Positions 2 through 17,109 of a stretch of DNA of 21,076 nucleotides are shown piece after piece. Source of the DNA: Candidatus Latescibacterota bacterium. Lineage in GTDB: Bacteria; Latescibacterota; UBA2968; GCA-2709665. Position 1 is the first letter of the stretch. Each line of letters begins with the position of its first letter. The position numbers and the translations under genes are program-made. Where the stretch lies: contig JAAXHE010000105.1 of NCBI GenBank assembly GCA_012271065.1, positions 1 through 21,076 on the forward strand, written 5' to 3'. The notes under the pieces were generated by a model. The model did not search any database, was not told the DNA's origin, and was given only the letters and a program-made list of their open reading frames with translations.

Positions 2-448
2 AAACCCGGCGACGGCGCGCAACCGGCCGTCTGGACCGCCCGATTGCCGCACAGCGGCGATTACGACGTCTACTACTATTTCATTCATCCAAGGTTCTCC
101 AGGCGCCTGCGTATGGCCACGGAATTCAGCCTTGTCGTCTCCCACGGAGGCGAGGTGGATACACTGGCGGTTGAAGCAGACAAACTCAAGGGCGGCTGGA
201 ACGTACTGGGACGATACCGGTTCGAAGGCGGGGAGTTTGCCAGCGTCGAATTGTCCGACCGGGCAAACGGGCGCCTATATGCGGATGCGGTGCGCTGGAG
301 GTACGTGGACCCCGACCACCCGGAAGAGGTGTATGAAGAAGATCTACCCGCATGGGATTTCGGCCGGGGCCGTCGGGGCGGTGACCGGAGCGGACGAGGC
401 GGGGGCAGCCGGAGCGGCGGAGGACAATGGCGTGGAAGAGGTTGGTAA
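2..448 (+). CDS. C-terminal part of a protein with a golvesin/xanthan-lyase-like domain and an Arg/Gly-rich tail (5' end outside window)
   Basis: The reading frame is open from the left edge of the window to TAA at 446-448, so only the last 148 residues or so are seen. The visible domain has the features of the golvesin C-terminal/Xly-like beta-sandwich found on secreted enzymes: a 'W-x-A-R-L-P-x-S-G-x-Y-x-V' strand, a central 'GGWNVLGRYRFEGG' block, and the closing 'ADAVRWRY' strand. These domains are thought to bind carbohydrate or other surface ligands and usually follow a catalytic domain, which would lie to the left of this window. After the domain comes an acidic linker (EEVYEEDLPAWDFG) and then a tail of about 25 residues made almost only of Gly, Arg and Ser, ending in Trp. 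The tail is unusual for a secreted protein. The domain family is fairly sure; the enzyme it belongs to is unknown. Confidence 0.7.
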   Translation, partial: KPGDGAQPAVWTARLPHSGDYDVYYYFIHPRFSRRLRMATEFSLVVSHGGEVDTLAVEADKLKGGWNVLGRYRFEGGEFASVELSDRANGRLYADAVRWRYVDPDHPEEVYEEDLPAWDFGRGRRGGDRSGRGGGSRSGGGQWRGRGW

Positions 449-1575: not shown

Positions 1576-1732
1576 TAACCGTTTGCACCGCACATCCGCC
1601 GTCCTGACTGCCGTACCGGCTCGAGAGATCCCGTCCGCAACGAACGAAACATCGTGTGAAATTTTTGTGTCCTGTCCCGAAAATTCCTCACCATTCGACC
1701 GCCGATTCATCCCGTCTCGCTGCGTTCCCGTC

Positions 1733-1779
1733 GCTCGCCGACCATACGCAGGTTGCCTGCGCTCCGGCGCCTTGCGAGC
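1733..1779 (+). other. Nested stem-loops in the intergenic leader
   Basis: CGCAGG (1747-1752) and CCTGCG (1756-1761) form a perfect 6-bp hairpin with a TTG loop. GCTCGC (1733-1738) pairs with GCGAGC (1774-1779) to enclose it. The arrangement, about 60 nt before the terminator, would suit a folded leader RNA. The function is unknown. Confidence 0.4.
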
Positions 1780-1839
1780 CAGGCGACTCAGCAGTCGAAT
1801 TCAGCCAACTTATTCCCGGGACAGAACACCAGATTGGAC

Positions 1840-1887
1840 CCCTCTGGGGCCCGGCGACAGCGTGTGGGCCTTCCGGAGGGTTTTTTT
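1840..1887 (+). terminator. Strong rho-independent terminator between adaptor and RND genes
   Basis: The arm at 1840-1852 (CCCTCTGGGGCCC) pairs with 1866-1880 (GGGCCTTCCGGAGGG), giving 13 pairs with one G-U and a 2-nt bulge around a 13-nt loop, followed directly by seven T at 1881-1887. It lies 265 bp after the adaptor stop codon and 171 bp before the first RND start. It can end the adaptor transcript, or act as an attenuator for the pump genes. Confidence 0.8.
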
Positions 1888-2010
1888 AACCCGCTGTGTC
1901 GATGCTCGCATACCGGAGACATGGACCCGCGACCCACGATGTCTTCAGGCATTGTGACACTCGATCCCGGGGACTTTTTCCTGCCATCGTCTCCATCCAT
2001 GTAAATCTAC

Positions 2011-2031
2011 GGTTTCTGAGTTATAGAAACC
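2011..2031. promoter_or_regulatory. Perfect 7-bp inverted repeat upstream of the first RND gene (possible operator)
   Basis: GGTTTCT (2011-2017) and AGAAACC (2025-2031) are exact reverse complements separated by GAGTTAT. The site ends 27 bp before the ATG at 2059. Spacing and symmetry suit a dimeric repressor such as a TetR-family regulator, but no such regulator is in the window. It could instead be an mRNA hairpin. Confidence 0.4.
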
Positions 2032-2058
2032 AGTTCTTGCGCAAAAAGGGCCGATACG

Positions 2059-5000
2059 ATGTCATTGCCCGAATTCTCGACGAAATATCCCGTGACGGTC
2101 GCTATGGCGACGCTGACGGTAGCGCTTCTCGGCTGGATTTCGCTGGAGCGGCTGGACGTGGATCTGTTGCCCGACCTGCGTTCGCCCGTGATCACTGTGG
2201 ACCTGCGTTTTCCGGGCAAGACGCCCAGGGAGATGGAGGAACGATATGCGCAGCGCCTGGAAGGTGACATCGGCACGGTGCGACACGTCAAACGGGTACA
2301 TTCCGTGTCACGCTCCGGGCAGGCCGTGGTCATCGCGCAATTCGAGTGGGACGCGGACATGGATTTCGCCGTACTCGATGTGCAGAAGAAAGTGGCCCGG
2401 TACGCATCGGACCCGGATATCACGAGCCTGGACGTTACACAGGAAGACCCACAGGCGTTGCCGGTGATGCGCCTCGCCGTATCGGGAGCGGACTGGCAGG
2501 ATCCCGACGAATTACTGGGCAGGGTGGAGAACATCATTCGGCCCAAGCTTGAAGGGCTGTCCGGGGTGGCTTCGGTTGAAATCGAAGGGGGCGCCGAGAA
2601 AGAGATCCGCGTCACACTGGATTCCTATCTCCTGCAAGCATTTGGCGTTAATTCCGAAACGGTGGTCTCGCGGATTCGCGAGGCGAATTCGGATGTCTCC
2701 GGAGGAACGCTGAAGGACGGGCAGCGATCTTATCTGGTAAAAGGCCTGGGGCGTTTGACGGATCTGGCGGACGTGAACAACCTGGTTGTGGGCGAGCGCA
2801 GGGGCGAATCGACGAACGGCGGAGAAGACGCTTCGACCCACCGCGTGCCGGTCACGGTCAGCGACGTGGGTAACGTAGCTCTGCAATACAAAGAGCGTGA
2901 AACCATCGTGCGCCTGGACGGCATGGAGTGCGTAGGGCTTGCTGTTTACAAGGAAGCCGGTTCGAATACCTCTTCAGTGGTTAATGGAGTCCTCCAGGAA
3001 CTGGGAAGCCTCGAGGCCGATCTGGCCGGCATCCGGTTTACCGTGGTGGAGAACCAGGCGCGCTTTGTCGAACGCGCGGTAGATGAAGTGGAAGAGGCGG
3101 CCGTTATCGGCGCGTTGCTGGCCGTGGGCGTGTTACTTGCCGCGCTCCGTCAATGGACGGCCACGCTGGTGATCGGCCTTGCCATTCCGATTTCCGTCCT
3201 GGCAACCTTCACGCTGATGTATTTCCAGGGGTTGTCGCTGAACGTGATGACCCTCGGCGGTCTGGCGCTGGGCGCGGGCATGCTGGTGGATAACGCCATC
3301 GTCGTGATTGAAAACATCTACCGGCACCTCGAAAGTGGAGAAACCGCCGTGGAAGCCTCGGTCAAAGGCGCCGGCGAGGTCGGGGTCGCGATTCTGGCTT
3401 CCACCCTGACGACGGTTTCCGTGTTTCTGCCTATCGTCTATCTTCAGGGGTTGGCCGGCGAACTCTTCAAGGAACAGGCCTGGACGGTCGCGTTTTCACT
3501 GATTTCGTCTCTTGCCGTAGCGATGACGGTGGTCCCAATGTTGACCGCACGGCTCTTCAGTCGGTATCGGCGCAGATCCACCAGGGCCGCCGGGGCGCGT
3601 ACGTTCAGGCTTTTTCTAGATGCGTCCCTTAACCATAAAGGCCGCACGATGGCGGTACTGGCAGTCTGCCTTCTGGCCGCCTTCTATATGGCCGCGTCCA
3701 TCCATACGTCATTCATTCCCACGGAAGACGAGGGCGTACTTCACGTGGATCTCGCAATGCCGGAGGGCACAAGGCTCGAGTCAACAGACAGGGTAGCGAG
3801 GCGTGTTGCGGCAATTGCACAGGTGGTTGCCGGAGAGGAAGCGCGGCACATCTACTTGCGGGCGGGAACCGATCCGAACCGGTTCACGGCCGTGGGAGAA
3901 CCCACAGGCCCGAACCGGGCCGAGCTGACGGTCGTCCTGGGCCCGCAAACGGACCGCCGGGGCGTCACTGAACTCACCGCCGCACTGGATGCAGCCCTTC
4001 TGGAAGTTCCGAACGTCAAGGTTAACTATCGACTGCATAAATCTGCGTTGGAAGGACTTGTACGTGGAGGCGCCGCACCGGTCCAGGTGGAGGTCAGCGG
4101 TGAGAATCTGGTACTGCTTCGGGAGCTGACGGCAGACTTGAAACGGCGCATGGACGTGCTGTCGACGGTGTATAATGTACGAACCAGCTTCCAGGACGGT
4201 CAGCCCGAGGTAGACGTCGTGCTGCGGCCGGAAGTCACAGCGGCGTTCGGCCTTACCTCACAGAACCTCGTGCGTGAACTCGAGCGCAGACTGGGCGGCG
4301 AGGAAGCCGGAGAACTCTCCAAGGACCAGCGTGCGCGAACCATCCGGGTGGGGTTCGAAGACGTGGATCTTCGTGAGTTGGAACATGCGAGAATCGACGG
4401 CCCCGACGGGGCAATGCTCACGCTGGGAGACCTCGCCGACCTTCGCGTGGTCCAGGGTCCAAGAGAAATTCTGCGTGACGGTCAGCGCAGGGTGGGGAGG
4501 GTATCCGCTTTTCTGACCGAAGGCGTGGTCTTGAGCCAGGCGGCAACGCAGATCAGACAGGCGGTAAGTCAGATGGCCATTCCACACGGGTACCGGATAA
4601 CCATAACCGGCGAGGAACGGGAGCGTGCCGAATCGTTCGGAGGCCTGCAATTCGCCCTTCTGCTTTCCGTGGTGCTCGTCTACATGGTCATGGCATCGCT
4701 CTTCGAGTCTCTGCTGCATCCGTTTACCGTGATGCTGACCGTGCCGCTGGCCGGCATCGGGGTGGTGTTCGCATTCTGGGGACTGGGAGAGGCTTTCGGC
4801 GTGATGGCTTTCATCGGAGCGATCATGCTGGGAGGCATCGCGGTCAACGACGCCATCATTCTGGTGGACCACATCAACCAGTTGCGGCGGAAAGCGGGCG
4901 ATGTCAGGATGGCCGTCCTCCAGGGCGCGCAGGATCGTCTGCGTCCCATCCTGATGACCAGCGCTACGACCATTCTGGCACTGTTGCCCATGGCGGTGGG

Positions 5001-5142
5001 TGTCGGCGAAGGCGCCCGCCTGCGGGCGCCGATGGCAGTGGCGGTTATCGGCGGATTGGTGACGTCCACACTAATGACACTGGTGGTGATTCCAGTCGTC
5101 TACGAAATGATCGAACGGCTCAGAAACAGGAGGACGGCGTGA
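2059..5142 (+). CDS. RND-type efflux permease subunit (AcrB/MdtB-like, HAE family)
   Basis: This is an inner-membrane, proton-driven multidrug or lipid exporter subunit of the AcrB superfamily. Its 1027 residues match the family length. The fold order is visible: TM1 (about 12-28), the first large periplasmic loop, TM2-6 (about 348-500), TM7 (about 529-548), the second periplasmic loop, and TM8-12 (about 865-1015). The TM4 proton-relay motif reads GMLVDNAIVVIEN, with D411 present and the second acidic residue replaced by N412. The TM10 motif reads GIAVNDAI (N930, D931), so the AcrB lysine is absent. The start is ATG 2059 with a modest AAGGG eight bases upstream. The stop overlaps the next gene by 4 bp, so the two RND proteins are probably made together and may form a mixed trimer, as MdtB and MdtC do. 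The substrate cannot be told from sequence. Confidence 0.95.
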   Translation: MSLPEFSTKYPVTVAMATLTVALLGWISLERLDVDLLPDLRSPVITVDLRFPGKTPREMEERYAQRLEGDIGTVRHVKRVHSVSRSGQAVVIAQFEWDADMDFAVLDVQKKVARYASDPDITSLDVTQEDPQALPVMRLAVSGADWQDPDELLGRVENIIRPKLEGLSGVASVEIEGGAEKEIRVTLDSYLLQAFGVNSETVVSRIREANSDVSGGTLKDGQRSYLVKGLGRLTDLADVNNLVVGERRGESTNGGEDASTHRVPVTVSDVGNVALQYKERETIVRLDGMECVGLAVYKEAGSNTSSVVNGVLQELGSLEADLAGIRFTVVENQARFVERAVDEVEEAAVIGALLAVGVLLAALRQWTATLVIGLAIPISVLATFTLMYFQGLSLNVMTLGGLALGAGMLVDNAIVVIENIYRHLESGETAVEASVKGAGEVGVAILASTLTTVSVFLPIVYLQGLAGELFKEQAWTVAFSLISSLAVAMTVVPMLTARLFSRYRRRSTRAAGARTFRLFLDASLNHKGRTMAVLAVCLLAAFYMAASIHTSFIPTEDEGVLHVDLAMPEGTRLESTDRVARRVAAIAQVVAGEEARHIYLRAGTDPNRFTAVGEPTGPNRAELTVVLGPQTDRRGVTELTAALDAALLEVPNVKVNYRLHKSALEGLVRGGAAPVQVEVSGENLVLLRELTADLKRRMDVLSTVYNVRTSFQDGQPEVDVVLRPEVTAAFGLTSQNLVRELERRLGGEEAGELSKDQRARTIRVGFEDVDLRELEHARIDGPDGAMLTLGDLADLRVVQGPREILRDGQRRVGRVSAFLTEGVVLSQAATQIRQAVSQMAIPHGYRITITGEERERAESFGGLQFALLLSVVLVYMVMASLFESLLHPFTVMLTVPLAGIGVVFAFWGLGEAFGVMAFIGAIMLGGIAVNDAIILVDHINQLRRKAGDVRMAVLQGAQDRLRPILMTSATTILALLPMAVGVGEGARLRAPMAVAVIGGLVTSTLMTLVVIPVVYEMIERLRNRRTA

Positions 5143-8100
5143 TTCTCCCCGATCTTGCGGTCCGGCGGCCGGTCACGACGTCCATGTTCTTTGCCGCGTT
5201 CGCCATATTGGGGGTGGTGTCGTGGACGAGGCTCCCCATACAGCTTTTTCCGGAGCTGATCTTTCCGGAGGTATATGTCACGCTGACGCTGCAGGGGGCC
5301 TCTCCGGAACAGGTAGAGAGAGATCTGCTGATTCCCATAGAAGGCGAGATCGGCAAACTCGACGGCGTCCAGGAGATGGAGTCGTTCGCGATGGCAAACA
5401 GGGGGGGTGTCCGGGTATCCTACGCCCCCGACGTGGATATGAAATTCGCCCTGCTTCAGCTGCAGAGCAACCTGAACCGATTGCAGGCATCGCTGCCCGA
5501 ACGCACGCAGACCGATGTACGGAGGTTCGATTCGACCGATCTCAGCAGCAGCATTATGGAGCTTCACGTGCTTGCCGACTGGGACCTGAACCAGCTGCGG
5601 GAGTTCACGGAGGAAAAGATCCGACCCGAACTGGAATCTGTCGACGGCGTCGTGAACGTATCCGTATTGGGCGGGCGCCGCAGCGCGGTCGAAATCGTCC
5701 TGGATCCGTTCCTGCTGGAGGCGCACGGCCTTTCGACGGGCCAGGTACGGACACGCCTAAACAGCCACAACCGGAGACGTGAGTACCTGGGTCGGGTATA
5801 CGACGGGAACCGGGCCTATTCCGTTAGCATTCAGGGACAGTTTACGGACCTGCACCAGATTCGCAATCTCGTCTTGAACGAGGGCGGCACGCTCAGGTTG
5901 GGCGACGTCTCGCGGATCAGGCACGGACTTCAGGAGCAGGCCGATCGGCACAGAGTCAACGGCAAGCCTTCTGTGGGCGTGCGCGTCCAGAAGGACGACG
6001 AAGCGAATCTGATCGAAGTGGCCGCTGACGTGGAAGCCGCCATTGGCAGGCTGAATCGGAATCTCGAGAGTGAGGGTGTGGAACTGGGCGTGAGTTCCTC
6101 CCAGGCCGATCTGATGACGGGGGCGCTCTCCACACTGAAACAGGCGGCCATCGTCGGTGCCGTGCTCGGACTCATCGTACTCTTTCTGTTTCTTCGTAAC
6201 CTGCGTTTTGTCTCGGTCCTCCTGCTGGCCATCCCGGTCTCCCTCCTGATGACCTTTAATCTGATGTACCTGGGCGGGCTGTCCGTCAACGTGCTGTCGC
6301 TTTGCGGTCTCGCGCTTGCGATGGGAATGCTCGCGGACAACGGCATCGTGGTGATGGAGAATATCTTCAAACACTACGAACGAGGAAAGTCGCCCGCTCG
6401 CGCGGCACGGGACGGGGCATCCGAAGTCGGGCGCGCCGTGATCGCGGCGACAGCAACCACGGTAACCGCATTCCTGCCGGTTCTGTTCATCGAAAGCGAC
6501 GCACGGGACCTGCTGCGTGAACTCGCGTTGTCCATGGCGTTTCCGCTTGTGGCTTCGCTGCTGGTGGCGCTTACGCTTGTCCCCGCCCTTGCCGTCCGCG
6601 CATTGAGCAGCGAGGTCCGGCAGCCGCCGGACGTCCGTGGCCTGCTCGAACGGTATACCATGCTGTTGAAGGCCGCGTTGCGGCACCGTGCATCTGTGGT
6701 CCTGGCGGTCGGCGCCGCCCTTGCGCTGACACTCGTCCTGGCCTTCTTCTACCTGCTTCAACAACAGGTACGGAGGGAGGAGACGCGCTTTACGGTTTAC
6801 GTGAATCTGCCGGAAGGCGCCACGCTGGATGCCACAGATGACGTCGTGAAACAGGTGGAGGAATCCGTACGGGACGTGCCTGGTCTGGATCGCTTTTCGG
6901 CGTCGGTCCGTGAGGCCGAGGCCGACGTAAACGTCCTGCTGCATAACCGTTCCGGGCGGCCCGGTGGTATCTCGCTGGATGAAATCAAGGAACAGCTTGA
7001 CGAGAAACTGCAGAATGTACAGGGAGGCGTCGTGGGATACGAACCCAGGCCCAGGGCGGGGAGGGGGGGCCGTGGGCAGGGGATAGGTCAACGCCGGCGG
7101 CGCAGTTCCGGAGGGTTCGATCTGACCGGAACCTCGCCTGCCGAGCAGGTCGTGGTACGCGGATACGACTTTACGATACTGACGATGATCGCGAACGACG
7201 TGTCATACCGGCTTGAGGAAATCGAGGAGGTGGATGCCAACAGCGTACGTGCCGACGCCGAACGGAGTTCGCCCGAGGTCCAGGTGATTCCCGACGCGTC
7301 GGCCCTGTTCGACAGGCGGCTCGACGCGCGGGAGGTCCTCGCTGCAATGGGTGACACCCGATGGGACGGGTTCCGAACGACTGTTCCGTTTCTGCTGCCC
7401 GACGCCACCGAGATACCCATCGAAGTGCGAACGATCGAAGAGGAGGACCGCGACCGCTACGGGCTGTCTGAGTTCCGGCGTTCGCGCATTCTGAACCAGG
7501 ACGGCCACTACGTACCTCTGAACGAAGTCGCGCGGGTCCGGACGGACGAGGGCAGAAGCAACCTGTTGCGGACCGACCAGACACGCCGGCTCGTGGTTTC
7601 GTACAGGTTTCCGTCGGAAGTCCTGGATTCTCAACCACGATTGGATCTTGCGAGGCGGGCGGTGCGCACGACGCTGCAGGATATGCTGCTTCCCGAGGGT
7701 TATTCGATCGAAGTCATCGAGGCACACGAGGAGATGATTTACTATTGGATGATGGCAATAGCCGCGGTACTCATCTATATGATTCTGGCCTCGCTGTTTG
7801 AATCTCTCTCCTCTCCGATAATCATCCTGTGTACGCTTCCGCCCGCGGCCATTGGCTCCTGCTGGGCGCTGATGATGTCAGGCACGGGCCTGAGCCAGCA
7901 GGAGGGCCCCATGGCGCTCCTGGGCTTCATCGTCCTGCTTGGAATTGCGGTGAATAACGGGATTATCCTGATCGACGCCGTCGGTGTGCTCAGATCCCGA
8001 TTCGGCTATCGTCGGGAACGCGCCGTACTGGCGGCCGCGAGATCCCGTGTACGACCCATCCTGATGACAACGGCCACGACGCTGCTGGGCGTTCTTCCGC

Positions 8101-9851
8101 TGGCGCTGGAATTCGGCGGCGATTTTGAGATCTGGCCACCTTTCGCAATCACGGTACTGGGCGGTTTGTCGGTCTCCATGGTGTCCACGCTGATCCTGAT
8201 TCCAGTCGTATATATGGGACTGGATCAAATCGGAGACTGGCTTGCAGACATGGGGTTAATCGGCGTCGCGCTCTCGCTGCTGGCCACGGCCGCGGCCGGC
8301 TACGGCATATATGTCCGATATGAAAGCATCTTCTGGGCAAGCCTGTCGATAATACCAATCTGGATTGTCTTTTTGACGGGGGTGTGGATCATCCAGAAGG
8401 TACATCGCTCGCGAGTCGCCGCCCGCCGCGTGTCGAGCGCCGTACACGCCATTCAGTTGAGAAACCTTACCAAGATTTACGGCGCGCCCGGCCGATTCGT
8501 GCGGGAGTGGGCGCGTGATGAGCGCCGACGCGGGCGGCTGATGAAAACAGGTCTGGATCCGCAGGACCGCAAGGCGGTTCGCGATGCACTCTTCTGGAAG
8601 CTGCCTTTGCTTGCGCTGTTGTCGTTATTCACCGCCTATTTCGAAGACGAAATCTGGGTCTATCTGCACGCGTTGGCGTTGGCTTTTATGGTGGCCCACG
8701 TGGGTCGATGTTTCGCAGACCTCCGCCAGTGGCACCTGCCCGCGCCGTTCGCTCCCATTGTCAGACTGCTTGACAAAGTCATTCTTCCACTGACGCTTAT
8801 CGCCTATGTGCACTGGCGGCTGGGCCTGCTTTCGGTCACGCTTGCCACATTCGGACTCTGGGCCGCCTATCGTCTGGCACGCCGGCTTGCGAACCGGGTG
8901 CGGACGGGTGAGATCGATCCCGATGCCCTGTCGGGACGTCTTCTGCGACCGCGCCGGTGGTTCTATCAGATGGCGTCGGCGCTGCCTCTTATTGGCGTTC
9001 CCCGGCGGGAATTTCGGGCGCTGGCTGGCGTCAACCTGGAAATCGGCAGGGGGATGTTCGGTCTTCTGGGTCCGAATGGCGCCGGCAAGACCACGTTGAT
9101 GCGTATTCTCTGCCGTGTACTCGAACCCAGCTACGGGTCCATTCTGATCGATGGCCGAAATATCCTGAATAAGGGTTCGATCCATGGACTGATCGGGTAC
9201 CTGCCACAGCACTTCGGCAACTACGGACACCTTTCCGCATACGAGTTTCTGGAGTATAGAGCGCTGCTCGAGGGCTTCAAGGACAGGAAGATTCGCGAGA
9301 CACGGGTGATCGAATCTCTGGAGCAGGTCAATCTGAGCGAACGAAGAGACGATCCGATCGGCTCTTTTTCGGGCGGAATGAAGCAGCGCCTCGGCATCGC
9401 GCAGACGCTCCTGCACGCCCCGCTTATCGTCGTCGTGGACGAGCCCACGGCGGGACTCGATCCGTTGGAGCGTATCCGGTTTCGCAACCTGCTCGCCAGG
9501 CTGAGTCAGGATCGCATCGTCATTTTTTCCACGCATATCGTGGAAGACATCTCTGGAAGCTGCAATCGGCTGGCGGTACTGGATCAGGGGCGTCTACTGT
9601 ATACGGGAACGCCGGGGGAGATGAGATATCTGGCGGCGGGCCGGGTGTGGGACGCGGTGGTTCCGGACGGACGCTTTTCCGACTTGGAGGAACAACTGAA
9701 GCTCATATCGCACCAGCGAACCCCCGACGGCGTCCGGATGCGATTCCTGTCGGAACGGGCACCGGCTGGCATCGGCGCACAGATCGTGGATCCAACCCTG
9801 GAAGACGCATATCTCTACCTGCTTGGCGGAGGGGAGGGACAGCCGTGCTGA
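5139..9851 (+). CDS. RND permease fused to an ABC transporter ATPase, with a membrane insert splitting the ATPase domain
   Basis: A single 1570-residue frame joins two transporter types. Residues 1-1030 form a full RND permease: TM1 at 12-30, TM4 motif GMLADNGIVVMEN with D400, TM10 motif GIAVNNGI at 937-942, TM12 ending in 'LIPVVY'. Two further TM segments follow (about 1040-1059 and 1064-1086). An ABC ATPase then begins with IQLRNLTKIYG (1105-1115), breaks off, and after a basic stretch plus about four hydrophobic segments (about 1151-1248) resumes at 'FRALAGVNLEIG' (from 1292). Walker A is GPNGAGKTT (1311-1319), the signature SGGMKQ (1411-1416), Walker B ends at D1434-E1435 and the switch His is H1466, so the ATPase looks active. 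An Arg/Gly-rich loop sits in the second porter loop (about 635-660). The start is GTG 5139 after AGGAGGA (5128-5134), overlapping the first RND gene by 4 bp. The ATPase probably works with the ABC-2 permease that follows. Domain calls are sure; mechanism is inference. Confidence 0.93.
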   Translation: MILPDLAVRRPVTTSMFFAAFAILGVVSWTRLPIQLFPELIFPEVYVTLTLQGASPEQVERDLLIPIEGEIGKLDGVQEMESFAMANRGGVRVSYAPDVDMKFALLQLQSNLNRLQASLPERTQTDVRRFDSTDLSSSIMELHVLADWDLNQLREFTEEKIRPELESVDGVVNVSVLGGRRSAVEIVLDPFLLEAHGLSTGQVRTRLNSHNRRREYLGRVYDGNRAYSVSIQGQFTDLHQIRNLVLNEGGTLRLGDVSRIRHGLQEQADRHRVNGKPSVGVRVQKDDEANLIEVAADVEAAIGRLNRNLESEGVELGVSSSQADLMTGALSTLKQAAIVGAVLGLIVLFLFLRNLRFVSVLLLAIPVSLLMTFNLMYLGGLSVNVLSLCGLALAMGMLADNGIVVMENIFKHYERGKSPARAARDGASEVGRAVIAATATTVTAFLPVLFIESDARDLLRELALSMAFPLVASLLVALTLVPALAVRALSSEVRQPPDVRGLLERYTMLLKAALRHRASVVLAVGAALALTLVLAFFYLLQQQVRREETRFTVYVNLPEGATLDATDDVVKQVEESVRDVPGLDRFSASVREAEADVNVLLHNRSGRPGGISLDEIKEQLDEKLQNVQGGVVGYEPRPRAGRGGRGQGIGQRRRRSSGGFDLTGTSPAEQVVVRGYDFTILTMIANDVSYRLEEIEEVDANSVRADAERSSPEVQVIPDASALFDRRLDAREVLAAMGDTRWDGFRTTVPFLLPDATEIPIEVRTIEEEDRDRYGLSEFRRSRILNQDGHYVPLNEVARVRTDEGRSNLLRTDQTRRLVVSYRFPSEVLDSQPRLDLARRAVRTTLQDMLLPEGYSIEVIEAHEEMIYYWMMAIAAVLIYMILASLFESLSSPIIILCTLPPAAIGSCWALMMSGTGLSQQEGPMALLGFIVLLGIAVNNGIILIDAVGVLRSRFGYRRERAVLAAARSRVRPILMTTATTLLGVLPLALEFGGDFEIWPPFAITVLGGLSVSMVSTLILIPVVYMGLDQIGDWLADMGLIGVALSLLATAAAGYGIYVRYESIFWASLSIIPIWIVFLTGVWIIQKVHRSRVAARRVSSAVHAIQLRNLTKIYGAPGRFVREWARDERRRGRLMKTGLDPQDRKAVRDALFWKLPLLALLSLFTAYFEDEIWVYLHALALAFMVAHVGRCFADLRQWHLPAPFAPIVRLLDKVILPLTLIAYVHWRLGLLSVTLATFGLWAAYRLARRLANRVRTGEIDPDALSGRLLRPRRWFYQMASALPLIGVPRREFRALAGVNLEIGRGMFGLLGPNGAGKTTLMRILCRVLEPSYGSILIDGRNILNKGSIHGLIGYLPQHFGNYGHLSAYEFLEYRALLEGFKDRKIRETRVIESLEQVNLSERRDDPIGSFSGGMKQRLGIAQTLLHAPLIVVVDEPTAGLDPLERIRFRNLLARLSQDRIVIFSTHIVEDISGSCNRLAVLDQGRLLYTGTPGEMRYLAAGRVWDAVVPDGRFSDLEEQLKLISHQRTPDGVRMRFLSERAPAGIGAQIVDPTLEDAYLYLLGGGEGQPC

Positions 9852-10567
9852 ACTGGCGGGAACTGCTGTTGACCACCTGGCGGCTTTATCGGCTGAGCTG
9901 CAGGATCATCTTTCACAGGAAACTGATGTTCATGTCCATTGGCATCCTTGTCTATTACGCCGCCATGTACGCATTCGCGGTGTGGCGGCCCGACGAAGGA
10001 TTCGGCGTATCGAGGGCGCTCCATGTTCTGGTCGAAATTCCCGGCATCGCACTGGCCATCTATCTGACGATGGATCTCGTCGCGGGCGAACGTGACAGGA
10101 ATACACTGGAGACGCTGTTCAGCACAACCTCGTCGCACTACAGGATTTGGACGATTCGAATGTTGGGGGTCTATCTGGTGCTTGCGGGAACGCTAACGGG
10201 AATGACGATTGTCGCCTACTTTTTCTTCGCGGAATTGCCGATCCTATGGGGCGGGTTGAACGCCTTTCTGCCGGCGTGCTTTGCAGCGGGGCTCACGTTT
10301 TACTTTTCCGTTCTCTGTCGAAGCGGAAACGCAGCAGCGATGCTCGCTACGGGCGTGATGGGCCTGACGCTTGTTGCCTCACAATCAATGCCCGATTCGC
10401 CCTTCGCGCTTTTTCTGGATACGTTCGATCCCCCGGTGGGAATGGAAGACACGTTGTGGGGCGACCGCGTACTGCTGAATCGCATGGCGGTCGCGCTGCT
10501 GTCGGGCCTGCTGCTTCTCATTGGTCTTCGCAAGATGGAAGCCAGGGAAAGATTGGTATCTTCGTAG
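9845..10567 (+). CDS. ABC-2-type transporter permease subunit
   Basis: This 240-residue membrane protein has about six hydrophobic segments, starting with one at residues 28-48. It carries the ABC-2 permease hallmark 'AGERDRNTLETLFSTTSS' in the first cytoplasmic loop, the region that contacts the ATPase. Proteins of this class export lipids, polysaccharides or drugs, or support gliding and cytochrome assembly. The start is GTG 9845, inside the end of the RND-ABC gene (7-bp overlap), with a purine-rich GGAGGGGAGGGA just upstream at 9828-9839. A longer reading from further upstream would run inside the ATPase coding region and is not credible. Overlap and order make it the likely membrane partner of the fused ATPase. 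The next gene is convergent, only 53 bp away, and I see no clear terminator between them. Confidence 0.85.
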   Translation: MLNWRELLLTTWRLYRLSCRIIFHRKLMFMSIGILVYYAAMYAFAVWRPDEGFGVSRALHVLVEIPGIALAIYLTMDLVAGERDRNTLETLFSTTSSHYRIWTIRMLGVYLVLAGTLTGMTIVAYFFFAELPILWGGLNAFLPACFAAGLTFYFSVLCRSGNAAAMLATGVMGLTLVASQSMPDSPFALFLDTFDPPVGMEDTLWGDRVLLNRMAVALLSGLLLLIGLRKMEARERLVSS

Positions 10568-10620: not shown

Positions 10621-11763
10621 CTATTCCCTGCTTACATCCAATCGGACCTTCCGGGGTACGACGTTTACGACCGTCAGGTCCGTCCCGTGCCTAACAGACT
10701 CGGTGCCGAATTCAAAGGTTCTGCGTCCGAACCTCACGTAACTGGCGTCGATAACGAGTTGGAAGTCGTCCACGGGCGCCAATAGGATTGCACGACGCGG
10801 ACCCTTCACGGTAACGTCTACAACGGCAGGTGTAACGCCCTTCAGCTTATAGCCACGTGGCAGATTTTCCACGCCGACCTTCACTTCGTATGTCGTTTCC
10901 TGGACCGCCGCGCCGGGTACCAGAAACATCCACGCGCAGAACGCCAGCACGAGGGAAACCAACCCCTCCGCAAGACGCCGCACCAGCCGGCCCCGTCCGT
11001 TCTTCCGCCCGCCGGCGACCACGTGCTGCGCATGTTCCTGCAACCTGGCCAGAAGTTCAACGGGGTCGCCTACGACTTCCAGCTCTCCCTGTTGCGCCAC
11101 GGAGATGGTGCCACGCTCTTCGGAAACAACGAGGCACAGGGCATCGCTGCGTTCGGCCAGCCCGAGCGCAGCTGCGTGGCGGGTGCCTCCCGCGCCGAGT
11201 TCGGCGCGGTTTTCCGAAAGCGGCAGATGTACGGCGAAACGCTCCAGTTGGTCATCTTTCATCACCAGAGCCCCGTCGTGACCCGCCGACGACGTGCCGA
11301 ACAGGCTGTCGATCAGCTCTTCACTGATATTGGCCTGTAGCGCGATCCCGCCTTGCAGAAGCCTGTCCAGCGGCTCTCGCCCGGGCAGGACCACGAGGGC
11401 GCCCCGCCGCTTCACCGCCAGCTGATGAATCGCACGAACCAGCACCGCCAGACTGCCTCCTCGGGGCCGGGATACCCGTCTGCCGAGGCCCAGCGCGGCA
11501 ATCTGTTCGAACAGCCGCCGGAGGTCGTCCTGAAACACAACCACAAGCAGCACAACCAGCACTGCGAAAAAACCCTGGAATATCCACGCGGTCAGCTGCA
11601 GTTCGAATTGCCGGGCCAGCAGATAGAAGACGCCCAGAAACGCCAGCCCCACAAGCGCCATTCGCGCGTGCATTCTCCGTGTCCAGGCAAGCAGGCCCCA
11701 GATCAATACACCCACGACCGCTACGTCCACCAGATCGGCAAATGCGATGTCCATAAACGCCAT
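10621..11763 (-). CDS. Diadenylate cyclase (CdaA type) fused to a YbbR/CdaR-like domain
   Basis: The protein should make cyclic di-AMP from two ATP at the inner membrane. It has three N-terminal TM segments (about 10-80), then the DAC catalytic domain with DGA at 163-165 and GTRHAAALG around 193-201, ending in the 'VVSEERG' strand. A basic linker, a fourth TM segment (about 250-270) and one YbbR repeat (to residue 380) follow. In Firmicutes the cyclase (CdaA) and its YbbR regulator (CdaR) are separate adjacent genes; here they are one chain. The RHR motif of the family reads R195-H196-A197, so its third residue is lost. I chose ATG at 11763 because the chain from there starts MAFMDIAF, close to known CdaA starts; ATG at 11754 is possible. 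No good ribosome-binding site is seen. The 37 residues upstream of this ATG look non-coding. Confidence 0.88.
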   Translation of the reverse strand: MAFMDIAFADLVDVAVVGVLIWGLLAWTRRMHARMALVGLAFLGVFYLLARQFELQLTAWIFQGFFAVLVVLLVVVFQDDLRRLFEQIAALGLGRRVSRPRGGSLAVLVRAIHQLAVKRRGALVVLPGREPLDRLLQGGIALQANISEELIDSLFGTSSAGHDGALVMKDDQLERFAVHLPLSENRAELGAGGTRHAAALGLAERSDALCLVVSEERGTISVAQQGELEVVGDPVELLARLQEHAQHVVAGGRKNGRGRLVRRLAEGLVSLVLAFCAWMFLVPGAAVQETTYEVKVGVENLPRGYKLKGVTPAVVDVTVKGPRRAILLAPVDDFQLVIDASYVRFGRRTFEFGTESVRHGTDLTVVNVVPRKVRLDVSRE

Positions 11764-11821
11764 TTCGGGGGTTTTGCGGCTGTGAAATTCAGGCTTCCGA
11801 GTGCTAAAGCATACCCGTGAG

Positions 11822-11839
11822 CGGTGGATTTGTCCACCG
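11822..11839. promoter_or_regulatory. Perfect 7-bp hairpin upstream of the cyclase gene
   Basis: CGGTGGA (11822-11828) and TCCACCG (11833-11839) pair perfectly around a TTTG loop. It lies 58 bp upstream of the cyclase ATG, in its probable 5' untranslated region, and lacks a T-run on either strand, so it is not a terminator. It may be an operator or an mRNA structure. Confidence 0.35.
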
Positions 11840-11996
11840 GTACGGAATATGGGCAATCTTTCACATTTCGTCAAGACCCCGGCCGGTATTCATCAATAAT
11901 CCTGCCAATGCCCGCCGGGTACCGTGACACCCTGATTGTCCCGGGATCCGGCGACCGCTTCGTGAAACGGAATTGCCCGTTGTACCCGTCTTTCGC

Positions 11997-12096: not shown

Positions 12097-12777
12097 ATGC
12101 AGGGTGCACGGGGACGGTTGACCAGACGGGAACTCAGGCAGGACGAGTTTGTCAACAGAATACTGGCGGCGTGGGCCTATGTGGAAGAGAACTATGTCCG
12201 GGTGCTTGCCGCCGGCGGGGGAGTGGTTGTCCTGATCCTGCTCGGCGTATTCGTCATGCACCAGATGGACGCCCAGGCCAGGGAGGCGGTGGAGGCGGAG
12301 GGCCGGGTTCGGGTACTGCTGCTCCAGGGGAGGGTCGACGATGCCATTCTGGACGCGGAACGCGTTGCGGAAGCCTATAGCGGCGATGCGGCAGCGGGGA
12401 GGGCGCTTCATCTGGCCGGCGGTCTTTATTTTGAAACCGGGCGCTACGCGGAGGCGCGTGCTGCATTCGAGAGATACCTGCAGGCGTTCGACGGGGGAGG
12501 ACCCGCAAGGTACAGCGCCTGGTCAGGTATCGCGGCCGCAATGGAAGAAGAGGGCGATCAGGCAGGTGCGGCAGCCAAATACCTGGCGTTCGCCGACGAA
12601 TTCGTCGACTCGCCGTTTGCGCCCAATGCGCTCAGGGAGGCTGCGCGCTGTTACAGACTATCGGGCGATACAGTCCAGGCCAGAACGCTGCTCCAGCGCA
12701 TCCTGGACCGTTATCCTAGGAGCCCGGTTGCGCGAAGTGCCGGGGAGGAACTCAATCAGATGGGTGGTGTCGGATGA
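12097..12777 (+). CDS. Membrane-anchored tetratricopeptide-repeat protein (YfgM/CpoB-like TPR)
   Basis: This 226-residue protein has a charged cytoplasmic N-terminus (RRELRQDEFVNRIL), one TM segment (about 38-58), then alanine-rich helical repeats of TPR type; 'GRYAEARAAFERYL' and 'DTVQARTLLQRILDRYPRSP' are typical TPR units. The layout matches the YfgM/PF09976-like family, single-pass proteins with periplasmic TPRs that act near the Sec translocon or the envelope. I set the start at ATG 12097 because GGAGG (12084-12088) sits eight bases upstream. An ATG at 12082 lies before that site and has no ribosome-binding site of its own. The stop overlaps the start of the heparinase-like gene (ATGA), indicating translational coupling. 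The family is fairly sure; its role and why it is paired with the next gene are not known. Confidence 0.8.
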   Translation: MQGARGRLTRRELRQDEFVNRILAAWAYVEENYVRVLAAGGGVVVLILLGVFVMHQMDAQAREAVEAEGRVRVLLLQGRVDDAILDAERVAEAYSGDAAAGRALHLAGGLYFETGRYAEARAAFERYLQAFDGGGPARYSAWSGIAAAMEEEGDQAGAAAKYLAFADEFVDSPFAPNALREAARCYRLSGDTVQARTLLQRILDRYPRSPVARSAGEELNQMGGVG

Positions 12778-15700
12778 CGGATCCGGAACTGAGAACGACC
12801 CGGTCACGCGCATTCAACCCGACCGACCTGGCCGACGATATCCTGCTGGTGGTACCGGACGATATGTTGCGCCACTCCGCTGTCGCCAGCGTTCGCGACG
12901 CGGTGGGGAAGGTGGGGCGACCGCCGGAAACGATCCCTCAGGGATGTTTCCGACCGGAGCAGTTCCGGGAAAGACATGTCATTGCATGCGGAAATCTGGC
13001 AAATAACCGGGCGATCCAGCGATTATATACCGCCCGGTGTTGTTTTGTGGATACCTTGTTCCCGGGTGAAAACGGCTATCTGGTCAAGTCGATTTCAGAT
13101 CCGTTCGGGTACGGCCGCAATTGCATTGTCGCGGGCGCCAGTTCCGATGATGGACTGGCGGCGGGCCTCGGCATTTTTACGGACATCGTCGCCGCCGGCA
13201 ACGGCTGTCTGGACCGCGTCCACGCCGCGTCTTCGGGACCTGAAACGCCCCTCCCGCCGGATGCTTCGGAGATCAACCGGATGGTACGGGACGATCTGAA
13301 GATCTGGGGAACGGGGTGGTCGGCTTCGCCGTTTCGCGGAGGCAGGCTGCTGACATATCTCTGGCGTCATTACCTCACGGACCACCCGGTCTGGGCGCGA
13401 GCGGCGGTGGAAATCCTGAAGGGATCCATAGAACCGTGGCGCGCGGAATGCCGTGCGCACCCGGAGGCCTACCACTGTTTCTTCAACCTGCACCTCTATA
13501 TTCATCTATGGGACCTCGTGGAAGACAACCCCCTGTTTACGCGGGAAGACCGTCTGGGGGCCGTCACGATGTTCGCGGAGTTGCTGAGACATCTTATGAA
13601 GCTCTCGTACGTCTCGGAGGAAGTGAATCCTCCAGGTGAAATCCGGCAGAACCACACGACTTTCATCGGGTTGAACCTGGCGGTGGGCGGCGACTACATG
13701 ACAAGGCGGCACGGAATTGGGGAGTTTCGACGGGCGAACGAAATCGCAAGCCGCATATTCGAAGGTCAGATGGACTGTTACAAGCCCGATGACGATGGGG
13801 GAGTGGGGTACGTCTGGCACGCGCCCCAGGAAACACTCAGCTACTCTCTGTACCGTGACGACGACCGTTACCTGACCGGGGGCCACGTGGCGGACCTCTG
13901 CAAACTGGCCGTTGTCACCACCGACAACATGCGCAGCGAATGCGGTTACGGCGATACCTCCGGGTACTCTGCATTCTCCACAGACGGATGGGAAGCGCGC
14001 CTCTGGCCGCTGATGGTTTCGACCTGGTATCGTCCGGACCCCGGACACCTCTGGACGTTGAACTGGCTGGGCGAGGCAAAACGGCCCCCGACGGACGGGG
14101 CGCTGCACGGCCTCTATTCGGCGGTAGAGTACGTGGGCGACCGCTTCGCCATTGAAGGATGCGCGACGGAAGCGCCCCGCGATCTGCTTGGAATCTGCGT
14201 GATGGATATGCCCGATGCGGTACTGTCCTGGGTGCGTCGATATACCCCGCAGCCGCATCATCCGGACCCCCGCAGACGGTATTTCGACAAGCTGTCGCTG
14301 CGGCGTAATTTCGAGCCGGGGGGCGAGTACCTGTTGCTGGAAGGCATCGGCACGACCTGTCACGGACACGAAGATACCAACGCGATCATCCGGCTGACAT
14401 GGAACAACAGGGCCTGGCTGGCGGACGGGGATTACATCCGGGCGGCGCCCAGGTTTCACAATTCCGTCACGGTCATGCGCGACGGCGTCGGGGTCCTCGA
14501 TTCGCCCGGTGACAGCGTCGTCATTCCCCCTCTGGCATCCTTGAGCATCGGTAACGACGGCGCGGAACTCGCGACGCTCCGTTCCGAAGCCGCGGGATAC
14601 AACGGCGTGGACTGGCAGCGCGACATTTTCTGGCGCAAGGGTCGCTATATGGTGGTCATGGACCGGCTGCGCTGCCACGAAGCGGGTGACTATCGTCTGC
14701 AGTGTCTGTGGCGGACGGTGGGGGACCCGGCGCTCGAGGCGGAAGGGGTTTGCATCCGACAGGAGGGAGAGGAATTTCATATCCGTAACGCGGACGGTTC
14801 GTCGCAAGAGATCGTACCGGATACGCACGTCAAGAGCCGATGGGGGAGCTATCCGTATTCGGACGGGACGATTTCCGTACTGCATCAGCGAACCGGGTGT
14901 ACCCTCGATGCGGGAACGTCGTTTACCTTTTTGAATCTGCTTACCCCGGGCCCTGACATCCGTATTGAGCGGATCGGTGCTGACGCGGTAAAGGTAACGG
15001 ATGGAGACGAAGTCGCTCTGTTGGGCGCCGGGACCCTTGAACTGGATGGTCTTCAGCTTTCGGGAAGCATGTTCGGGTGCCTCGCCCGGGGCAATCGCGT
15101 GGTCCTGAATGGCGTCGAACGGCTTGGCGGACGAGCGGTCGACAGCGATGAACGGGAACTGGACGATCCCGAGCTTGCGGCCCGGATCCGCCGTGCGCCG
15201 GAAGCATCTCAGGCAGCCCGGCCCGCAGCCCGCCCTCCGGTTTCCGGCGGGCCGGCGGACCGATGGCGCCGCGAATTCCCGCACAGGATTCGCCACGTCT
15301 GCGTCTCAGACGAAGGCAAATTGCTCCTTGCGTATGGCACGGAGGTCGCGTGTCTGCGTGCGGCGACCGGCGATACGGCCTGGTCCCGGTCGATTGACGC
15401 GGAAGGCGGCGCCAGCCGCGTGCATCTGTCGGATATCGACGGTGACGGGAATTCGGAAGCAATGGTGGGTACCGAGGACTCGCAACTGGTTGTTCTGGAA
15501 GGCGAATCGGGTTCAGAACGGTGGCGGCGCCCGATGGCGAATATGTTCAATCGCGGCACGCGGGTGTCCGCCATCGCGGTGGCCGACCTGGAAGGGAACG
15601 GCGACCTGAGCGTGCTTGCCGGTACCGAAGGATGGTTTGTCAACGCGTTTGCGAACGACGGCAGCCTTAGATGGGCCGAGTGGTTTCGATATCACGCCAT

Positions 15701-16316
15701 CACGGCGTTGAGAGTCACAGACACGGACGGCGATGGCAGGGCCGAGGTTCTGGCTGGCACGGAATACTACACGCCGCTGACGGTACACAACTTCGACGGG
15801 TCGTTTCGCTGGTCCACGTTCGAGCAGGTTGGATCGCACGGCAACGCCACAACGCCCAGGCGCGGCATCGGTCTGAAACATATGGTGCTGTGCGACCTGG
15901 ACCGCGACGGCGTTCTGGAAGTCGTTTACGGTACGGAAGACGGTTGGATCTACGCCGTTAAACCCCGGGACGGCGCCGAACTCTGGCATACCAATCTGGT
16001 GGGCGAAGTCACCGGGCTTATCGTCCTGGAGGATGTACTGATTGCGGCGTGCGAATTCGGCGTGCTGTACGGGTTTGACTTTAACGGGAATCTGATTTGG
16101 CGACGCCACGAAGTGGAATGGATCCACACGCTCGCCGAATCAGCCGGTGTAGTCGCCGCCGCCGTCAACCGGCGGGAGATCCGGACGTACGACCGGGAGG
16201 GACGCTGCCAGGGTTCGCTGGAAATACCCGCGAACGTCACTTCGCTCACCGCGGCGCAGAGCGGGTTCGTGTGTGCCGATGAACGGGGCGTCGCAATGAT
16301 TGATCTTCAGGCATGA
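12774..16316 (+). CDS. Heparinase II/III-like protein with C-terminal FG-GAP/PQQ-like propeller
   Basis: The 1180-residue chain has three parts. Residues 1-200 form an alpha/beta region ('GNLANNRAIQRLY', 'PGENGYLVKSISDPFG') like the N-terminal domains of some glycosidases. Residues about 200-800 look like a polysaccharide lyase: an alpha/alpha toroid with an N293-H294 pair in 'IRQNHTTF', then a beta-sandwich with H530-G-H532-E-D534 in the position of the heparinase II/III C-terminal domain. After a Pro/Ala-rich linker (about 815-832) a beta-propeller follows with four calcium-loop motifs at D887, D938, D983 and D1041 (DIDGDG, DLEGNG, DTDGDG, DLDRDG) mixed with PQQ-like 'W-blade' strands. The expected role is uronic-acid polysaccharide cleavage plus binding. 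The N-terminus has no signal peptide, which is odd for such a protein. ATG 12774 overlaps the upstream stop. The domains are fairly sure; activity and substrate are not. Confidence 0.78.
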   Translation: MTDPELRTTRSRAFNPTDLADDILLVVPDDMLRHSAVASVRDAVGKVGRPPETIPQGCFRPEQFRERHVIACGNLANNRAIQRLYTARCCFVDTLFPGENGYLVKSISDPFGYGRNCIVAGASSDDGLAAGLGIFTDIVAAGNGCLDRVHAASSGPETPLPPDASEINRMVRDDLKIWGTGWSASPFRGGRLLTYLWRHYLTDHPVWARAAVEILKGSIEPWRAECRAHPEAYHCFFNLHLYIHLWDLVEDNPLFTREDRLGAVTMFAELLRHLMKLSYVSEEVNPPGEIRQNHTTFIGLNLAVGGDYMTRRHGIGEFRRANEIASRIFEGQMDCYKPDDDGGVGYVWHAPQETLSYSLYRDDDRYLTGGHVADLCKLAVVTTDNMRSECGYGDTSGYSAFSTDGWEARLWPLMVSTWYRPDPGHLWTLNWLGEAKRPPTDGALHGLYSAVEYVGDRFAIEGCATEAPRDLLGICVMDMPDAVLSWVRRYTPQPHHPDPRRRYFDKLSLRRNFEPGGEYLLLEGIGTTCHGHEDTNAIIRLTWNNRAWLADGDYIRAAPRFHNSVTVMRDGVGVLDSPGDSVVIPPLASLSIGNDGAELATLRSEAAGYNGVDWQRDIFWRKGRYMVVMDRLRCHEAGDYRLQCLWRTVGDPALEAEGVCIRQEGEEFHIRNADGSSQEIVPDTHVKSRWGSYPYSDGTISVLHQRTGCTLDAGTSFTFLNLLTPGPDIRIERIGADAVKVTDGDEVALLGAGTLELDGLQLSGSMFGCLARGNRVVLNGVERLGGRAVDSDERELDDPELAARIRRAPEASQAARPAARPPVSGGPADRWRREFPHRIRHVCVSDEGKLLLAYGTEVACLRAATGDTAWSRSIDAEGGASRVHLSDIDGDGNSEAMVGTEDSQLVVLEGESGSERWRRPMANMFNRGTRVSAIAVADLEGNGDLSVLAGTEGWFVNAFANDGSLRWAEWFRYHAITALRVTDTDGDGRAEVLAGTEYYTPLTVHNFDGSFRWSTFEQVGSHGNATTPRRGIGLKHMVLCDLDRDGVLEVVYGTEDGWIYAVKPRDGAELWHTNLVGEVTGLIVLEDVLIAACEFGVLYGFDFNGNLIWRRHEVEWIHTLAESAGVVAAAVNRREIRTYDREGRCQGSLEIPANVTSLTAAQSGFVCADERGVAMIDLQA

Positions 16317-16440: not shown

Positions 16441-17109
16441 CTATATGAATGGCTCTTTTTTGTCGCTTCTGCTCTGTAGCGTGGATAATTCGGTTTTCAG
16501 CCGCCCTATTTCCCGGTTTTTGCCCGCCAGGTCCTCTTTAAATGCCTCACAGCTGTTTTCGAGGGCCTTGTTCTTTTCTTTCAGGGAATTCCGTTCTTCA
16601 CCAAGGCGCTTCAGTTCCTTTCGGAGCCAATGTGCCGAAAGCGCCGCCTCTTCCCTGGCTTTTTCGGCCACGCGGAGACTTTCGCGCAACCCCTCAATGT
16701 CATCCTTGTATTTTCGCGCTTCGGTCCAACCGGACGCCGACGACGCTTCGAGTTGGGCCTGTCGTTCGTTCAGTGCGCGAATTTCGGCCGTGCGTTCCGC
16801 CAGTGCCCGCTCGACGGCATCCAGTTTTCCTATTCGTTGTTGCAACTGGTCGTAGTCGCCCCGGTCGAGCTGTACCAGTGACTCGTTATGGAGTCCCTCC
16901 AGTCTTTCCGGATATAGAAGTTTTCCATATTTTTTCCTGTAAATTTCCAATATATTTCCTTTGGGAATCCGCCACGCGCCATTCCACTTCCGGGCTTTCA
17001 GATATTCCCGATCTATATAGTTTCGGACCGTTTTCGTGGTCACTTTAAGTAAATTCGCGGCTTGGTCGATGGTCAGATGCTCCGCCTGGTCGATCTGAAT
17101 GTCGGACAT
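16441..17109 (-). CDS. Excisionase/MerR-type helix-turn-helix protein with a long coiled coil
   Basis: The 222-residue protein starts with a compact DNA-binding domain (about 9-60): 'HLTIDQAANLLKVTTKTVRNYIDR' followed by 'ARKWNGAWRIPK' reads as the helix-turn-helix and wing of the HTH_17/excisionase family. From about residue 85 to 215 it is almost all charged heptad sequence (Glu, Lys, Arg, Leu), predicted as a coiled coil. The layout recalls KfrA-like or other multimerising DNA-binding proteins, but I cannot name a family for the full chain. ATG 17109 has GGAGG four bases upstream on this strand. The gene and its flanks are more AT-rich than the neighbours, which could mean recent acquisition. 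The inverted repeat at 17141-17162 in its promoter region is a plausible binding site for the protein itself. Confidence 0.75.
   Translation of the reverse strand: MSDIQIDQAEHLTIDQAANLLKVTTKTVRNYIDREYLKARKWNGAWRIPKGNILEIYRKKYGKLLYPERLEGLHNESLVQLDRGDYDQLQQRIGKLDAVERALAERTAEIRALNERQAQLEASSASGWTEARKYKDDIEGLRESLRVAEKAREEAALSAHWLRKELKRLGEERNSLKEKNKALENSCEAFKEDLAGKNREIGRLKTELSTLQSRSDKKEPFI

Follow-up and report, generated by a model that had tools for sequence, protein, structure and literature searches.

Resistance-nodulation-division (RND) and ATP-binding cassette (ABC) exporters are regarded as distinct machines, each with an energy source of its own. In MacAB-TolC, an ABC ATPase acts with a periplasmic adaptor and a TolC-like channel. 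In the MdtABC and MuxABC pumps, two different RND permeases and an adaptor are encoded in one operon, and these pumps, to our knowledge, contain no ABC domain. Both arrangements resemble the operon considered here, which lies in a stretch of DNA from Candidatus Latescibacterota bacterium (GCA_012271065.1, contig JAAXHE010000105.1, positions 1–21,076, forward strand; hereafter the window, 21,076 nucleotides in full). Unlike in those pumps, however, one of its two RND permeases continues in the same chain into an ABC ATPase. We call this protein RND2::ABC.

The gene for RND2::ABC occupies positions 5139–9851 of the forward strand, begins with GTG and stays open for 1570 codons (1570 residues). 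Pfam places ACR_tran at residues 5–1027 (617 bits) and ABC_tran at residues 1297–1438 (94 bits), bearing out the initial annotation of the window, which had described an RND permease and an ABC ATPase in one 1570-residue frame. That annotation also located the ABC motifs correctly: Walker A (GPNGAGKTT) at residues 1311–1319 (9069–9095), the signature (SGGM) from residue 1411 (9366–9389), the Walker B pair D1434-E1435 (ending at 9443) and the switch His at H1466 (9534–9536). The GTG overlaps the 3' end of the upstream RND gene, RND1, by 4 nt. In the nearest genome (G001), the gene is unbroken and 96% identical to the window copy.

The single-chain RND-ABC protein is genuine and widespread. A search with residues 1040–1570 gave at least 4127 matches, counted within a capped set of 7996 scored candidates. 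All of the best 120 of these 4127, the ones looked at, contain both PF00873 and PF00005, and 109 of them exceed 1450 residues; the remaining matches need not be fusions. Source names of the listed homologues include Acidobacteriota, Gemmatimonadetes, Latescibacterota, KSB1 and Krumholzibacteria, and those of shorter pieces include Bacteroidales, Odoribacter, Spirochaetales and Prolixibacteraceae. The fusion has been visible to annotators: JGI already uses a product name that joins AcrB to an ABC ATPase ('multidrug efflux pump subunit AcrB/ABC-type multidrug transport system ATPase subunit'). A profile of the linker only matched 31 of 64 genomes in the phylum of the nearest genome, with one match apiece (two pieces of one frame in G031), at least 6 of 395 genomes in the Draconibacterium phylum (no more than 8 candidates scored in each), and 39 of 123 genomes in the family of Parabacteroides massiliensis. 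One member of this family, G571, has two matches, on separate contigs (C297 and C281), possibly from two copies of the fusion; one of them is cut at the contig end.

That the fusion is an artefact, produced by misassembly or by read-through joining neighboring genes, has a negligible probability in our estimation. Such an origin would suit G515, where the halves lie in separate frames, and G035, where the gene is spread over several. However, the fused gene is complete and away from contig ends at 30 of 36 annotated loci, two of which belong to isolate genomes; at five of the others it lies at a contig end, and at one (L112) it is broken into several frames. Two single-contig genomes, G043 and G044, also carry an unbroken fusion, and the fused nucleotide-binding domains (NBDs) form one clade. 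We therefore reject the artefact explanation. The initial annotation had named two outcomes as fatal to its claim. The unbroken copies in G001 and at the 30 loci speak against the first, read-level evidence of misassembly at the junction; the second, homologues always split into two genes, is not borne out, and the same fusion with the same domain order recurs across genomes.

Not every homologue is full length. Short frames in G034, G012, G063, G568, G571 and G578 reach contig ends. Of 17 short homologues compared over their first 40 residues, many start inside the RND or linker part, a pattern that fragments, broken genes and true splits would share. Real exceptions are G515, which lies outside the 36 annotated loci, and G035; the pieces of their broken frames were searched separately, as they stand. 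We also scanned contigs with a Walker A pattern, keeping the best 80 of at least 596 matching stretches, a sample that gives no frequency. Nine of these 80 loci (L009–L017) contain the fusion, and 71 contain essentially the ABC part alone. Among the 71, three (L024, L036, L088) are the upstream ATPase of the same operon, ABCup, and two (L021, L028) show the same ATPase followed by the permease PERM1100 before the contig ends.

A tree was built from 30 of 37 fused NBDs (L012, L112, L114, L116, L127, L128 and L129 were left out for motif pattern or length) and from 47 of the 71 non-fusion loci, the rest lacking the motif pattern or length. The 30 fused NBDs form one clade with support of 100/99. 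A separate clade of 20 rows holds 15 ABCup sequences and the five scan loci just named. The relation between ABCup and the fused NBD, which may be sister duplicates, is a polytomy. RND1 (32 rows) and RND2 (25 rows) are likewise each one clade, with similar deep splits; that tree includes four outside rows, has long branches and carries no bootstrap values. The trees fit a single ancient fusion that would have been followed by co-inheritance and some spread between phyla.

Architecture of the fused protein

The RND half (residues 5–1027; 5151–8219) is a complete 12-transmembrane (TM) unit. Its ACR_tran match is full length (profile positions 3–1019 of 1021) and its best PDB sequence match is MdtB. 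It scores 528 bits against NCBIfam RND_permease_2, below the curated cut-off of 1250; the MdtC and MdtB models of NCBIfam rank high, with scores far below cut-off. To examine conservation, we aligned the window protein with the 109 listed homologues longer than 1450 residues, dropping 11 shorter rows (n = 110). The initial annotation had stated that the TM4 Asp is kept. This holds for D400 (6336–6338), which we take to be the acidic proton-relay residue and which is present in 110 of 110 sequences; the neighboring position, the second TM4 Asp of MdtB, is N401, again in 110 of 110. In TM10, the relay Lys of AcrB and MdtB aligns with N939, and Asn is invariant there as well. Three unfused RND genes of G001, found by motif pattern, carry D-N in TM4 with N-N in TM10 (two genes) or D-P with N-N (the third). 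Hence the D-N/N-N combination is not special to the fusion, and the TM10 Asn, shared by all three, does not preclude proton coupling. The RND half, with its invariant TM4 Asp, may still be proton driven.

Beyond the RND unit, the initial annotation had counted two extra TM segments. Hydropathy and a high-confidence structural model raise this to six: two directly follow the RND unit, and the other four lie within the ABC domain. The model, made with AlphaFold2 for residues 1021–1570 from a 100-row alignment, has a mean pLDDT of 91. Two linker helices at residues about 1035–1085 (8241–8393) are followed by the start of the ABC domain at about residue 1104. Residues 1104–1114 (8448–8480) form the first β-strand and include the A-loop Tyr, Tyr1114, which is present in 110 of 110 sequences; this element reads IQLRNLTKIYG at 1105–1115. 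The domain is then interrupted by about 177 residues (about 1115–1291; 8481–9011), and the next ABC strand, FRALAGVNLEI, follows at 1292–1302. Thus the fused NBD is not contiguous from strand 1 to Walker A, four TM helices being inserted between them. The rest of the ABC domain and a C-terminal extension (9012–9848) are delineated by Pfam, motifs, model, alignment and VIA-align.

Several observations identify this interruption as an insertion. ABCup, the standalone ATPase of the same operon, lacks it: in G001, ABCup reads GLTKIYPKGTVPALDSVDLEIGKG and runs through without a break. In the AlphaFold2 model, strand 1104–1114 leads into an amphipathic helix (1119–1136) and four long helices (1144–1164, 1171–1196, 1204–1228 and 1231–1255) before strand 1292–1303 and the P-loop. 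Solved NBDs aligned with VIA-align fit the model from model residues 80–85 on in 49 of the 50 best rows; one of them, 8hd0_A (FtsEX-EnvC), fits 210 residues at 1.8 Å over the model span 84–469, and hence about 176 model residues are skipped. Across the 110 aligned sequences, strand 1 is separated from Walker A by 195–288 residues, and the insertion is therefore present in all of them. It opens with a basic amphipathic helix bearing a conserved GRFxxEW motif, the Trp of which is found in 108 of 110. All 110 sequences share the Lys of Walker A, the Gln of the Q-loop, the Ser-Gly of the signature, the Asp-Glu of Walker B and the switch His. No four-TM insertion in a known NBD fold appears among the 50 Foldseek/VIA rows, the insertion alone having been neither folded nor searched. 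An ATPase domain divided by a four-helix membrane insertion is itself unusual.

A conserved gene cluster

With home-made profiles, we determined gene order at the 36 annotated loci as ABCup–PERM1100–(outer-membrane channel)–adaptor–RND1–RND2::ABC–PERM240. Counts cover only loci whose DNA reaches the position in question. Because the profiles were built from G001 (with the window), L009–L017, L089 and L092, matches at those loci arise partly by construction; L111–L136 are independent of the channel, adaptor, RND and ABCup profiles. RND1 is present at 31 of 31 loci, the adaptor at 29 of 29, PERM1100 at 28 of 28 and PERM240, directly downstream of the fusion, at 34 of 34. ABCup is found at 19 of 20 loci (17 of 18 annotated, plus L089 and L092). 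The exception is G044, where ABCup (68% identity) lies 0.9 Mb away and the 10 kb examined there yielded no further operon part. The channel gene belongs to the operon at Bacteroidota loci and in part of the home phylum. At the sequence level, then, RND2::ABC is co-inherited with RND1, the adaptor, often the channel, PERM240, and ABCup plus PERM1100.

The two permease families track the fusion closely in the phylum of the nearest genome. PERM240 occurs in 30 of the 64 genomes, all within the 31 that have the fusion; in the 31st (G063), the contig ends inside the fusion. PERM1100 occurs in 31 of 64, by a profile that also includes G029 and G044, and 30 of these have the fusion. G057, which has no PERM1100, has a contig that begins inside RND1. 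In G064, which has no linker match, the operon is present and RND2 is cut by the contig end. Both families are thus found almost only alongside the fusion in this phylum.

In the window, the operon begins inside PERM1100. Its C-terminal end, the Golvesin_C region (2–448, forward strand, as are the genes that follow), is near-identical to the C-terminus of the G001 copy (L007:13800–17198); the 5' part lies outside the window, and we read the upstream part of the operon from G001. The adaptor, a membrane fusion protein (493–1575), matches NCBIfam TIGR01730 RND_mfp with 191 bits (cut-off 94.9) and Pfam HlyD_D23. RND1 (2059–5142; 1027 residues) is an unfused RND permease that matches ACR_tran with 748 bits, and its stop overlaps the GTG of RND2::ABC. 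Downstream of the fusion, PERM240 (9845–10567; GTG most likely the start, overlapping the fusion gene by 7 nt) is predicted to be a small six-helix ABC-2-like permease. Its model has a pLDDT of 79, and its closest Foldseek matches, modest ones, are the NosDFY membrane chains, CcmABCD chain B, PmtCD and ABCG.

PERM1100, a permease of the ABC-2 type with about 1130 residues, has in the G001 copy a Golvesin_C match and weak matches to ABC2_membrane_3 and Peptidase_M1. The HEXXH zinc motif is found in 0 of 21 full-length copies, and the M1 domain is, judged by this motif, degenerate. PERM240 and the N-terminal 300 residues of PERM1100 are homologues over almost their whole length (hhalign probability 93.7, E 3e-8). 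It follows that the operon contains two ATPase-permease pairs, with one of the ATPases fused to an RND protein. The catalytic motifs of ABCup are kept in 22 of 22 copies, 15 of them with all patterns and 7 differing only in conservative variants, for example FLPQ or GKSS.

Two further observations concern this cluster. A 483-bp gap (window 1576–2058) separates the adaptor from RND1 in an otherwise tightly packed operon; in G001 and G026 it spans 317 and 322 bp, respectively, and no repeats were found in the window gap. G013 encodes five PERM1100-like proteins (contigs C200, C456, C186, C198 and C26), of which only that on C200 shares a contig with the fusion operon.

Possible modes of coupling

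Because widely differing bacteria share this fusion within a common gene cluster, RND2::ABC appears to belong to a genuine, hitherto undescribed type of exporter with two engines. The simplest reading, and the likeliest, has an ABC exporter held to an RND pump by the tether, because the fused ATPase has likely partners in PERM240 (34 of 34 loci) and in the upstream ATPase-permease pair. RND2::ABC would then physically link the parts of a hybrid exporter that spans the envelope, a reading to which we assign a probability of about 0.55. The fused ATPase and ABCup would power the ABC-2 permeases. Together these could form two homodimeric exporters; a single heterodimer, in which the fused NBD pairs with ABCup and PERM240 with PERM1100, would be more economical. 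Using ATP, the ABC part would move cargo from the cytoplasm or the inner leaflet to the periplasmic side. The tether would keep it beside the RND1/RND2 trimer, which would capture the cargo and pass it to the adaptor and on to the outer-membrane channel, presumably on the proton gradient. Cargo movement would thus take two steps, powered by ATP first and by the proton gradient second. More speculatively, an RND trimer with the 2:1 composition of MdtB2C1 could contain two RND2::ABC subunits and with them two NBDs, the number that one ABC transporter needs. A bolder version posits an obligate assembly whose ABC-2 heterodimer and RND trimer would be covalently coupled through the membrane-embedded ATPase domain, with ATP serving the inner-membrane step and the proton gradient the passage across the envelope for a single cargo. 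This would be a new transporter class, and we propose it tentatively, at somewhat less than even odds.

A number of observations weigh against the tethered exporter. In G515, from the search of the P. massiliensis family, the locus (L141, 3057–7884) has a frame change near RND residue 246 and, downstream of it, an in-frame stop at the RND/linker border; thus the tether may not always be needed, or this copy has decayed. RND1 lies in two frames at L131, as do both PERM1100 and the channel gene at L016. Among the annotated loci, the operon of the window's own clade encodes no outer-membrane channel. The Asn at the TM10 Lys position of MdtB leaves proton coupling by RND2::ABC not assured. For PERM240, the best Foldseek E value is 6.4e-3 (a NosDFY membrane chain), none being ≤0.001, with query TM-scores of about 0.5–0.64 in the top rows; PF12679 and PF12698 are below cut-off on the window protein, although precomputed on some homologues. 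Contact of the fused NBD with PERM240 or PERM1100 we infer from gene order and fold alone.

Two other readings assign the ABC half a different task. The fused NBDs could act on the RND trimer itself, through the six extra helices, with ATP gating or driving its cycling beside or instead of protons, while the ABC-2 permeases would form a separate exporter served by ABCup. The covalent fusion, kept throughout the family, would suit such a dual-energized pump, as would the anchoring of the NBD by its own conserved membrane insertion (110 of 110, with the GRFxxEW Trp in 108) and the invariant TM10 Asn, which would leave room for another energy source. But the Asn pattern is also seen in unfused RND proteins of G001, and we know of no RND protein with an NBD docking surface. 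Moreover, PERM240 is present at every reachable locus and in no genome of the phylum that lacks the fusion, which points to PERM240 as the partner of the fused NBD. We regard this reading as unlikely. The initial annotation had, in a similar vein, suggested that one protein could draw on both energy sources; the idea of the ABC half as a direct second engine for the RND protein is not supported in that form, as this ATPase has likely permease partners of its own.

Alternatively, the ABC half could be a regulator or assembly factor, whose ATP binding would gate assembly of RND protein, adaptor and channel by a MacB-like mechanotransmission, with little ABC-2 transport. The degenerate M1 and Golvesin_C domains of PERM1100 resemble periplasmic binding modules that might transmit motion, and the adaptor and often the channel are encoded in the operon. 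Yet neither ATPase has lost its catalytic motifs (110 of 110 fused NBDs, 22 of 22 ABCup copies), and two complete ATPase-permease pairs are conserved, making a mainly regulatory role quite improbable. The tethered exporter accordingly remains our preferred reading.

Other genes of the window and comparison with known systems

Three genes outside the cluster deserve mention. A 417-residue protein (10621–11874, reverse strand) contains CdaA_N and DAC (diadenylate cyclase); a YbbR match, weak and under the cut-off, hints that the c-di-AMP synthase CdaA may here be joined to a CdaR-like domain. At 12774–16316 (forward strand), the C-terminal third of a 1180-residue protein matches FG-GAP and BamB-like β-propeller repeats; no Pfam family matches its first ~800 residues at E 0.001. 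A gene at 16441–17109 (reverse strand) encodes an HTH_17/MerR-type DNA-binding domain followed by an apparent long coiled coil.

Among RND systems, the tripartite MdtABC and MuxABC pumps come closest to the operon. The fusion carries D-N and N at the sites taken in MdtB by two TM4 Asp residues and a TM10 Lys. For MdtABC, a heterotrimer, MdtB2C1, is known (PMC7015380); for the system described here, the genomes show co-inheritance of RND1 and RND2.

On the ABC side, the membrane chains of NosDFY, CcmABCD, PmtCD and ABCG, ABC-2/type V systems with a separate NBD, resemble the PERM240 model. TM_1403 heads the Foldseek list of the fused NBD, which also includes NosDFYL chains, and no NBD chain among the listed Foldseek/VIA matches is fused to an RND unit. 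We know of no four-TM insertion in the NBDs of ABC-2/type V exporters. Among the ABC models of NCBIfam, those for DrrA and GldA score best with the fused NBD and with ABCup alike, in each case below the curated cut-off; the fused NBD scores 166 bits against DrrA (cut-off 312) and 160 bits against GldA (cut-off 403).

We found no published description of an RND-ABC fusion among the titles and abstract openings listed from the open-access journal literature. Nor do we know of a system that matches the one-chain combination, the membrane-split NBD and the operon of two ABC and two RND components. A chain that keeps RND and ABC parts together, conserved in cultured Bacteroidota and uncultured phyla alike, would show that the two are coupled in nature, and the fusion offers a direct means of testing how cargo passes from an ABC step at the inner membrane to an RND pump across the envelope. 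Its cultured hosts, the commensal Parabacteroides massiliensis and the environmental isolate Draconibacterium mangrovi, make it testable. Each part of the system comes from a known family, and what is new is the combination, built from known parts, with a real chance that it represents a new class.

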